A stretch of DNA of 64,000 nucleotides. It comes from Halorubrum salipaludis (GTDB taxonomy: Archaea > Halobacteriota > Halobacteria > Halobacteriales > Haloferacaceae). The position numbers and the translations under genes were made by a program. The notes below the pieces were generated by a model that saw only the letters and a list, made by a program, of their open reading frames with translations, did not search any database and had not been told where the DNA came from. Below are positions 27,518 to 60,090 of the stretch, one piece after another; positions within the stretch are counted from its first letter, which is position 1; each line of letters begins with the position of its first letter. The DNA lies in the NCBI RefSeq assembly GCF_002286985.1, contig NZ_NSKC01000005.1:186001-250000 (forward strand). The letters run 5' to 3'.

Positions 27518-27989
27518 TGTTTATAAATCGGATTGTGGTGGTGGCGGGTGCTTATACGTGATCGTCGGCTCTGGAGTGACGGCCTGCAAAGCCCCAGTCG
27601 CTGCGGGCGGCGCACGCTCGCTGCGCTCCTCGGTCGCTCGTTTCACTCGCTCCCTGCGGTGCTTACGTCGTCATCAGAACGCGAAGCGTTCTGATTGGCT
27701 CACGAGAGCTCTGCTCTCGTGAACGCCTGCGCCGCCCGCAGCGACTGCCCCTTTGAGTCCCGCCCCGCACAGCACAGCACCGCACCTCACACCTCCCCAG
27801 CCTCGTCACCGGACTACGTCCGGTTGCAAGCGAGAGCTTCGCTCTCGCCCTGTCGCTGGCGCCTTATAAGGCGCCAGCGACTCCCTCGCGCGTGCGAGTC
27901 GCGCCCTCCGGGCGCTCCTCGGCACGCGCCACCGCAACGGTTGTTTATAACCGACTGTCGCCGCCGCTCGTGCTTTTTAAATACTGTAT
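27518..27989 (+). repeat. Structured intergenic repeat, copy A
   Basis: A noncoding element filling most of the 681-base gap between the zinc-ribbon and peroxiredoxin genes. In order: TTTATAAATC and CTTATAC TATA-like motifs; TGCAAAGCCCCAG; an 18-bp stem (27595-27612 with 27730-27747) enclosing two hairpins (27674-27694, 27701-27721); the block CTGCCCCTTTGAGTCCCGCC shared with the other copies; hairpins at 27808-27824 and 27830-27848; a perfect 30-base palindrome at 27852-27881 centred on TTATAA; a nested hairpin at 27888-27929; and a TTTATAA...TTTAAATA end. Stop codons and structure argue against coding. The flanks 27435-27517 and 27990-28116 show only promoter-like AT patches. Confidence 0.85.
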
Positions 27990-54279: not shown

Positions 54280-55626
54280 ATGCTCATCACGGGTGCGGAG
54301 CTGGCCGACGGGCGGGTCCGCGACGTTCGGGTCCGAGGCGGGACGGTCGACGCGGTGGAACCGACGAACGCTGGACTCGACGCCGACGCGGGGGAGCGCG
54401 TCGTCGACGCGCGGGGGCGCCACCTCCTCCCCGGCGCCGTCGACGTCCACGTCCACTTCCGCGAGCCGGGCGCGAGCCACAAGGAGACGTGGACGTCGGG
54501 CTCGCGGGGCGCGGCCGCGGGCGGGGTCACCACCGTCGTCGACCAGCCGAACACCTCGCCGCCGACCGTCGACGGCGACGCCTTCGACGAGAAGGCCGCC
54601 CTCGCCGCGCCGTCGCTCGTCGACTACGGGATCAACGGCGGCGTCACCGGCGACTGGGACCCGGAGAGCCTCTTCGAGCGCCCCCTGTTCGCGCTCGGCG
54701 AGGTGTTCCTCGCGGACTCGACCGGCGACATGGGGATCGCACTGGACCTGTTCGAGGACGCGCTCGCCGAGGCGGCCGCCCGCGACGTGCCGGTCACGGT
54801 CCACGCCGAGGACGAGACCCTGTTCGACGAGGGCGCGCTCGACGGCGACCTCGGCGGGGTCGGCACCGCCGCGACCGCCGACGCCTGGTCCGCCTACCGG
54901 ACCGCCGAGGCGGAGGCCGCGGCGGTCGAGCGCGCGCTCGACGCCGGCGCTGAGAGCGACGCGCAGGTGCACATCGCCCACACGTCGACGCCCGAGGGGA
55001 TCGACGCGGTCGCGGAGGCACGGGCGGACGCGACCGGGGACGCGCCGCCCACCTGCGAGGTGACGCCGCACCATCTCTTCCTCTCGCGCGAGGACGCGGG
55101 GCGGCTCGGGACCTTCGGGCGCATGAACCCGCCCCTGAGGTCCGAGAAGCGCCGCGCGGCCGTCTTCGAGCGGCTCCGCGACGGCGACGTCGACGTGGTT
55201 GCCACTGACCACGCGCCCCACACGGTCGCGGAGAAGCGACAGGGACTCACCGACGCGCCGAGCGGCGTGCCCGGTGTGGAGACCCTCTACCCGCTCCTCT
55301 TGGAGTCAGTCCGGAAGGGGAACCTCTCCTTGGAGCGCGTCCGCGACGTGGTCGCCGCCAACCCCGCGTCGATCTTCGGGATCGAGGGGAAGGGCCGGAT
55401 CGAGCCCGGCGCCGACGCGGACCTCGTGGTCGTCGACCTGACGAACCCCCGCGAGATCGAGGCCGGCGCGCTCCACGGCGCGGCCGGCTGGACCCCCTTC
55501 GAGGGGCTGCTCGGCGTGTTCCCGGAGCTGACCACCGTCCGCGGCGAGGTCGTCTACGAGCGCGACCCGGTCACCGGCGCGGAGTCGTTCGGCGAGCCGG
55601 TCGGCCGGAACGTGCGGGAGGCGTAG
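54280..55626 (+). CDS. pyrC: Dihydroorotase
   Basis: A 448-residue amidohydrolase that cyclises carbamoyl aspartate to dihydroorotate in pyrimidine synthesis. Metal ligands HVHFREPG give H57 and H59, with further histidines in TPHHLFLSRED and the aspartate in VVATDHAPHT. The position where class II enzymes carry the carboxylated lysine reads GEVFLADSTGDMG, fitting class I dihydroorotases that lack it. PPLRSEKRRAAVF and GVPGVETLYPLL are conserved late regions. It is followed by a long repeat-bearing gap. Confidence 0.95.
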   Translation: MLITGAELADGRVRDVRVRGGTVDAVEPTNAGLDADAGERVVDARGRHLLPGAVDVHVHFREPGASHKETWTSGSRGAAAGGVTTVVDQPNTSPPTVDGDAFDEKAALAAPSLVDYGINGGVTGDWDPESLFERPLFALGEVFLADSTGDMGIALDLFEDALAEAAARDVPVTVHAEDETLFDEGALDGDLGGVGTAATADAWSAYRTAEAEAAAVERALDAGAESDAQVHIAHTSTPEGIDAVAEARADATGDAPPTCEVTPHHLFLSREDAGRLGTFGRMNPPLRSEKRRAAVFERLRDGDVDVVATDHAPHTVAEKRQGLTDAPSGVPGVETLYPLLLESVRKGNLSLERVRDVVAANPASIFGIEGKGRIEPGADADLVVVDLTNPREIEAGALHGAAGWTPFEGLLGVFPELTTVRGEVVYERDPVTGAESFGEPVGRNVREA

Positions 55627-55762
55627 CGGAGGCGGGCGTGGGATCGGCGGATCGGCGCCGTCGGAACCCTATTACACGCACTATTCGGTTCTGAACGGGC
55701 GGTCGCCTGGGAGTGCTTCTCGATCGATAGCGGGAGTGGGTATATCGAGACGGTGGGTCGGA

Positions 55763-56256
55763 TGTTTATAAGTGGTTGAGCCGGGTCGTTGGCGGGTGTT
55801 TATAAGTGTTCGTCGATAGTACGATGACGGCCTCCAAAGCCCCAGTCGCTCGATTGTAAGTGGTCGCTGATGACTCTACGATGAAGACTCCCAAAGCCCC
55901 AGCCGCGCTCGGCTCCCACAGCTCGCTGCGCTCCTCGCCCGCTCACTTCGTTCGCGGCCTGCGGTGCTTGCGTCGCTGGGGTTCGCCGAGCGCGACTGCC
56001 CCTTTGAGTCCCGCCCCGCACAGCACCGCAGCCTCACGCCTCCCCAGCCTCGTCGGCCGGCGCTTATAAGCGCCGGCCGACTCCAGCGAGGGACGGAGTC
56101 CCTCGAGCAACCGGGCTTCGCCCGGTGACAGCCGGACGTAGTCCGGCGACCTCGCGCGTGTTGCTCGGCCGCAGGGCGGCCTCGCAGGCACGCGCCAACT
56201 GCATCTTCTTTATAAACGATTGTCGCCGTCGCTCACAGTCGTTTAAATATTGTATT
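55763..56256 (+). repeat. Structured intergenic repeat, copy B
   Basis: The second full copy, in the 753-base gap between pyrC and the PGF-CTERM gene. TTTATAA motifs at 55763-55771 and 55799-55805 head the element. CCAAAGCCCCAG occurs twice (55834-55845 and 55890-55901). The long stem is 55900-55912 with 55986-55998 (12 of 13 pairs). Next is CTGCCCCTTTGAGTCCCGCC, identical to the other copies. Downstream are a perfect 30-base palindrome at 56052-56081 centred on TTATAA, and hairpins at 56088-56104, 56110-56126, 56131-56147 and a nested one to about 56195. TTTATAA...TTTAAATA ends it as in copy A. Flanks 55627-55762 and 56257-56379 hold no gene. Confidence 0.85.
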
Positions 56257-56379
56257 TCGCCACCATCTTGCGAGACTTACTCCCGTCGTCGATCAAAATG
56301 CAGGTTCGGTCTGTTATCTGATTCAGGTGGATACCGATAGAAACGACGCCTCTCGACGTGCTCTCTCACCCTCGCTCCG

Positions 56380-59741: not shown

Positions 59742-60090
59742 TCGCTTATAAAAACCAGCGGTGGCGCGTGCCTCCGAGGCCGCCTCGCGGCCGAGGAGCA
59801 CGCGCGAGGGAGTCGCTGGCGGCGATAGCCGCCAGCGACAGGGCGAGAGCGAAGCTCTCGCTTGCAACCGGACGTAGTCCGGTGACGAGGTTGGGGAGGT
59901 GTGTGGTGCGGTGCTGTGCGGGGCGGGACTCAAAGGGGCAGCCTTGCGGGCGGCGTAGGTGACACAAGCACCGCAGGAACGAGCGAAGCGAGTGACGAGG
60001 AGCGCAGCGAGCGTACGCCGCCCGCAAGGCTGGGGCTTTGGAGGAGTTCGCCGTTGATCCACGGTCGAACACTTATAAACAACCGATAAC
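59742..60090 (-). repeat. Structured intergenic repeat, copy C (inverted)
   Basis: The third copy, on the minus strand, between the Vms1-like and DUF5802-like genes. Reading from 60090 to 59742: TTTATAAGTGTTCG, then TCCAAAGCCCCAGCC; a perfect 19-bp stem (60014-60032 with 59939-59957) enclosing GAGCGAAGCGAG-type hairpins; CTGCCCCTTTGAGTCCCGCC; hairpins ACCGGAC.../TCCGGT and GCGAGAGC.../GCTCTCGC; a 12-bp hairpin with GATA loop at 59812-59839 in the place of the TTATAA palindrome; nested hairpin; and a TTTTATAAGCG end. No coding sequence. The remaining flanks 59682-59741 and 60091-60129 are featureless. Confidence 0.85.

Follow-up and report, generated by a model that had tools for sequence, protein, structure and literature searches.

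What kind of element occupies the intergenic DNA at positions 55722–56294 of the window, a stretch of 64,000 nucleotides from Halorubrum salipaludis, and does it change by the exchange of whole hairpins, as the original prediction proposed, or by simple drift? The element lies between a plus-strand gene (54280–55626), which we take to encode a dihydroorotase-like protein, and a minus-strand gene. Its anatomy, its relatives in other genomes, and the way in which the copies differ from each other are described below.

Anatomy of the window copy

The whole element, to which no strand is assigned, spans approximately 573 bp (approximately 55722–56294) and is bounded by terminal inverted repeats; its ends lie further out than those of the original prediction. 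The left terminal repeat, beginning GATCGATAGCGGGAGTGGGTAT, occupies 55722–55753 on the plus strand (row C23+241995), and the right one, located by terminal repeat comparison, occupies 56260–56294 on the minus strand. The outer left part contains a nearly palindromic TATA-like motif, TTTATAAG (55765–55772, plus strand), and a second TATA-like motif (55799–55806), with a further one, TTTATAAA, at the right end (56209–56216, minus strand). The motif CCAAAGCCCCAG is present twice, 57 bases apart as had been predicted, with the second occurrence starting at 55891 rather than 55890. The first opens an extra 57-bp tandem unit (55834–55890, plus strand); the second belongs to the last unit (55891–55902, plus strand), and its minus-strand reading, which includes a GGGG tract, forms the 3′ strand of stem P1.

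The P1/P2 stem, defined by pairing and covariation, is composed of 22-nt arms on the minus strand, the 3′ arm at 55892–55913 and the 5′ arm at 55985–56006. It incorporates the predicted stem at 55900–55912 and 55986–55998, in which 12 of 13 positions indeed pair; a stem with at least 12 of 13 pairs at the same spacing arose in only 1 of 60 shuffled elements. The interior (55914–55984, minus strand), which is inverted in some other copies, comprises a tandem G·A ladder and a terminal loop. A covariance model matches two other copies in the window, at 27587–27804 (minus strand) and 59887–60040 (plus strand). Their stems have 20 and 19 uninterrupted pairs and are wholly unlike the stem at 55892–56006, in agreement with the prediction that the latter is a different one.

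Both the conserved 20-base block and the palindrome of the original prediction are present. The block, CCTCACGCCTCCCCAGCCTC, which reads GAGGCTGGGGAGGCGTGAGG on the minus strand to which it is assigned, lies at 56032–56051, and the palindrome, an exchangeable hairpin without assigned strand, is a perfect 30-mer at 56052–56081. What had been read as a swapped order of hairpins is instead an inserted multi-hairpin module, CAGCG-hairpin-AGCAA-hairpin-GTGACAGC-hairpin-GCGA (56084–56149, no strand), which splits the sequence GACTC^CCTCGCG; in both of the other copies in the window, a module of another kind precedes the palindrome. A distal hairpin, GCGCGTG...CACGCGC, lies at 56154–56197 (minus strand). 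A candidate pseudoknot between 55959–55968 and 56022–56031 was rejected: the segments are complementary in this copy, but the inner strand is used by a covarying helix (alignment positions 110–114 and 151–155), and by eye no consistent covariation for it is seen in the alignment A1.

A haloarchaeal family with a conserved minus-strand fold

A search of the H. salipaludis genome with a 17-base pattern, allowing up to two mismatches, returned 128 matches, against 5 for the reversed control. Pattern matches in unrelated bacteria and in most viral contigs, which have no upstream motif, were dropped before counting (for example L032, L046, L067, L077, L079 and most of L143–L150). The alignment A1, and the covariance model R1 built from it, comprise 95 copies from this genome and named contigs, nearly all of them from Halorubrum; 116 distinct copies were reduced to 103 with the downstream block, 102 free of N and 95 that passed a filter on length and similarity, so that copies with inserts or missing blocks are omitted. 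The model has at least 134 matches in the H. salipaludis genome among the best 150 of 6168 candidates scored, at approximately 131 places, three of which match on both strands. With that many places in 3.5 Mb, the repeat would be a dominant intergenic feature of this genome.

Matches to R1 were found in 147 of 194 genomes and 53 of 65 genera sampled across the class. Each of the 22 genomes from this genus has 14–15 matches among the 15 candidates scored, and copy number ranges from 1 to 88 per genome among 30 chosen matching genomes. In a sample of the phylum, 18 of 148 genomes match, all from the same order, and the other classes of that sample gave no match. No Rfam family reaches its gathering threshold for the element, the only such matches in the window being two tRNAs; the best sub-threshold match, to the Twister-sister ribozyme, was rejected at 21.9 bits against 34 required. 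The family is thus a class-wide structured one that is not represented in Rfam, and no description of it was recognised in the literature searched at the level of titles and abstract openings; this large family has apparently not been described so far. A portion of the element is found in 18 plasmid records, none of which has most of it.

The minus strand (in window orientation) carries a conserved fold, and the hypervariable stem within it stays paired. In A1, 91.7% of alignment cells are paired and 28 of 38 pairs have changed on both sides, such compensatory change being a feature of structured RNA genes. Pair counts far exceed those of shuffled and slid controls, and covariation is 0.327, compared with 0.125 after shuffling; none of 500 shuffles scored as high, a count that is not a probability because related rows are not independent. 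Three copies with inverted interiors are kept in these figures and omitted from the strand and loop counts, which cover 92 Halorubrum copies. Fold energy is lower for the minus strand in every one of these copies; the same holds for 55 of the 61 matches outside the genus, a set in which a few places are present in two loci. The minus-strand structure consists, in order, of a CAAAG/CTTTG helix, a GGG/GGG internal loop (91 of 92 copies), the hypervariable stem, and two-pair steps that alternate with tandem GA/GA (87 and 86 of 92 copies). Between genera the P1 helix changes from CAAAG/CTTTG to GAAAG/CTTTC while the GGGG tracts are kept (58 and 60 of 61 matches). The choice of the minus strand follows mainly from the tandem G·A pairs, in place of which the plus strand would have TC/TC; wobble totals also favour it (76 versus 49, and 68 versus 24), although the test per column is weak (p = 0.65 and 0.05).

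Mosaic copies and rearrangement breakpoints

The copies are mosaics, in which hairpins have been replaced, inserted and inverted as units. A readable hairpin stands at the palindrome position in 101 of 106 sampled copies from the H. salipaludis genome, with 65 distinct sequences. The palindrome of the window copy recurs in eight sampled copies (itself included) that have eight different stem starts, and another version occurs in eight copies with six different stem starts. Four copies share a core that is 94.8–98.7% identical over 310–357 bp, and have unrelated flanks and diverged outer ends; L314 and C23:117809 are 98.9% identical over 360 bp, nearly reaching the terminal repeats.

A relative of approximately 90% DNA identity, G341, provided orthologous flanks. 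In one orthologous copy, compensatory changes in the stem are accompanied by a palindrome of entirely different sequence and by an additional module; in another, orthologous on both sides, the stem-loop is replaced by a two-hairpin module. Hairpin exchange, the central claim of the original prediction, is supported because hairpins are shared across different stems and because orthologous copies differ by whole hairpins; none of the orthologous copies compared differed by point divergence alone. The accompanying rejection of simple drift holds in so far as hairpins are replaced; the compensatory point changes in one and the same orthologous copy mean that exchange and point divergence both act. 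Inverted stem interiors occur in L022, L110 and L138, three of the 95 copies. The data are compatible with template switching, the other mechanism originally proposed, which is plausible in the family of the window copy at the level of such patterns.

The proposal that two element starts were joined at CCAAAGCCCCAG did not survive comparison, and a chimeric join there is rejected. This motif belongs to a tandem unit of approximately 57 bp, present once in 63, twice in 32, three times in 6, four times in 2 and five times in 3 of the 106 copies; 43 copies therefore have two to five units, and 57 bp is the commonest spacing (37 of 62). Two-hairpin modules with fixed ends and linkers and freely varying stems, such as TCGC-hairpin-GCTGCC-hairpin-CGCTG, occupy the same few sites in L052, L055, L056, L076, L095, L097, L135 and others, as if they were site-specific mobile units. 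Eleven copies (L058, L069, L074, L087, L092, L099, L103, L104, L114, L132 and L142) have a further module, starting with CCGGAAGACG, inserted downstream of the stem at a single site.

Copies also coincide with rearrangement breakpoints and inversions. One pair of contigs was compared, C23 of H. salipaludis and a 400-kb part of G341. A copy is no more than 1 kb away from 5 of 10 block ends in one count and from 4 of 8 in the other (p = 0.0007 and p = 0.027, respectively, relative to intergenic positions drawn at random); block end 265303, with an element approximately 2 kb away, was scored as not near a copy. At locus L208 two inverted copies enclose a small gene. Its orientation relative to its neighbour is as in H. 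salipaludis in two of six relatives (G341 and G065) and flipped in four (G097, G328, G330 and G334); in G341 the next gene is in a new position, and the element is matched at both junctions. Ordinary recombination between repeats is enough to account for these changes, and the repeat provides a specific cause for the speed with which gene order is lost in Halorubrum.

Both inverted ends are present in 30 of the 106 sampled copies, and terminal-repeat ends number 60 genome-wide, compared with 0 for a control pattern. Terminal inverted repeats, a length of approximately 420–570 bp and insufficient size to code are MITE-like traits, with both ends present in part of the copies. Among those of the 60 ends that were inspected, three end pairs without an R1 match are short derivatives (L360, L361 and L362) that have both terminal repeats and no complete stem domain; the junction in L360 and L362 falls at a repeated GGCTGGGG, which suggests deletion between direct repeats. 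Left and right terminal repeats do not covary (704 matches against 698.9 when shuffled; 1547 of 5000 shuffles as high). By eye, no target duplication was seen in the flanks looked at, and no empty site appeared in the regions compared between C23 and G341. The pyrC gene is present in 52 of 52 genomes, and among 30 loci compared only H. salipaludis has a copy directly downstream; this site says little about insertion because gene order beyond the gene also differs. The low-copy elements L220 and L221 have ordinary-looking neighbours by eye, with no autonomous gene apparent, and no mobilising or binding protein for the repeat was found.

Competing explanations and known systems

The element is most likely a REP/PATE-like DNA repeat that ectopic recombination maintains; the fuller description, a class-wide, non-coding, dispersed intergenic haloarchaeal DNA repeat that works as REPs and PATEs do, we hold to be about as probable as everything else combined. 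The many resident copies would be preserved and kept similar by gene conversion or ectopic homologous recombination, which would place a core in older shells; strand-switching inside hairpins would rewrite stems and flip interiors. The target of selection would be the single strand in its folded state, as DNA, where it would probably serve as a hairpin bound by a protein. Action at the DNA level is modestly preferred over RNA, and is the first choice because of the mosaicism, the inversions and the breakpoints. The near-identity of L314 and C23:117809 almost to the terminal repeats would also fit movement of the whole element, and TATA-like motifs at fixed spacing near both ends weigh against selection on DNA rather than RNA. 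These motifs are the starting point of the main rival, which is appreciably less probable though well worth considering: a multi-copy structured RNA, in which every copy would be transcribed from a TATA box within it and the transcript of the minus strand would fold into a functional RNA. Strong covariation on one strand, together with the conserved tandem G·A pairs and invariant internal loop, would fit such an RNA, as would the TTTATAA that 57 of 104 copies have 5–9 nt past their right end (71 of 104 anywhere within 45 nt; 1.8% by chance). Transcription of the copies is possible since TATA-like motifs sit near both ends, but the motifs, which also occur in the opposite direction, are absent from between one third and one half of the copies, and the spacing of the right one would put the start inside the distal hairpin. 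The lack of an Rfam match and of any orientation bias relative to the neighbouring genes in same-direction gaps (15 versus 13) likewise argue against an RNA.

Template switching that keeps palindromes perfect, with no selection on the fold, would make the structure a mutational artefact. Arm homogenisation and spacer inversion are signatures of template switching in the parts of two reports drawn on here (PMC8604942, PMC8794818), and the inverted interiors match them; such a process would, however, erase mismatches, and the nearly universal GGG/GGG and tandem GA/GA loops argue against it as the sole cause, as does the change of P1 between genera with GGGG tracts kept. We regard this explanation as improbable. 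A bidirectional terminator or insulator between convergent genes is still less probable. Among gaps of at least 150 bp, 47 of the 91 that contain a copy lie between convergent genes, compared with 21 of the 235 that contain none (p = 6e-16), as expected for terminators or for repeats purged from promoters, which would produce the bias equally; 44 of the 91 are not convergent, and a plain terminator needs no conserved loop. Movement in trans by an IS200/IS605-type Y1 transposase, as for REPIN/PATE-type elements, is similarly improbable: the element is hairpin-rich, strand-asymmetric and intergenic, and head-to-head pairs in other genera resemble REP doublets, but no Y1 match was detected in G006, G009, G011, G015 and G187 (same genus, at least 15 copies each) or in G026, despite its 76 copies. 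A currently required Y1 enzyme is largely refuted by copies abundant in Y1-free genomes, and an extinct or unrelated enzyme is possible. A more speculative and rather unlikely idea is a class of folded single-strand element specific to haloarchaea, in which four conserved G-tracts (in the 20-base block, GGGnGGG and both P1 arms) could assemble, in molar KCl, into a G-quadruplex below the tandem G·A ladder, at its base. It would be a structure-specific recombination site that flips and reshuffles gene blocks, with the hairpins being exchangeable parts. Of 92 Halorubrum copies, 89 have all four tracts; in other genera, 14 of 61 matches have all four and 47 have the last three.

The family works like REP/BIME or PATE elements, yet fails one tested defining feature of each, the Y1 link and the lack of inverted ends, respectively. 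Bacterial REP, BIME and REPIN elements are short, structured, high-copy intergenic repeats that often form head-to-head pairs and are absent from genes. The haloarchaeal copies are likewise structured, high-copy and intergenic (0 of 80 and 0 of 94 inside genes predicted with a home-made gene caller) and often head-to-head; their fold is much larger, the stem is hypervariable, the distribution is class-wide in haloarchaea and no dependence on a Y1 (RAYT-like) enzyme was detected. Head-to-head inverted pairs approximately 0–200 bp apart are common in other genera (L211, L212, L214, L216 and L217). Integron attC sites also keep a one-strand structure while the stem sequence varies, but they form tandem gene cassette arrays served by the IntI integrase, whereas the present copies are dispersed singly or in inverted pairs.

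The PATEs and SMRs of Haloquadratum walsbyi, as excerpts of their description present them, are palindrome-rich, transposase-free and high-copy, with small repeats that target other repeats; PATEs there are without terminal inverted repeats and related to IS605-type ends (PMC3119063). Measured against those excerpts, the present family is similarly haloarchaeal, transposase-free, palindrome-rich and high-copy, with apparent loss of the core between short direct repeats (see L360 and L362), and differs in its frequent terminal inverted repeats, covarying fold and abundance without Y1 transposase. Class I intergenic repeats of the Halorubrum virus HF2 consist of 56–58-bp units with TATA-like motifs, according to a partial account (PMC8707807). 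The 57-bp tandem unit with its TATA-like motif (55799–55806) is similar in length to the units in that account, but no DNA similarity was found, no phage record matches the element, and none of eight viral contigs with the short pattern matches R1.

The family constitutes a many-copy natural system for hairpin evolution, with compensatory change, template-switch-like inversion and replacement side by side. It probably also breaks genome assemblies, since several contigs of H. salipaludis end in a copy (C23:1–144, C26:4–128, C27:1–144 and C27:229672–229796).
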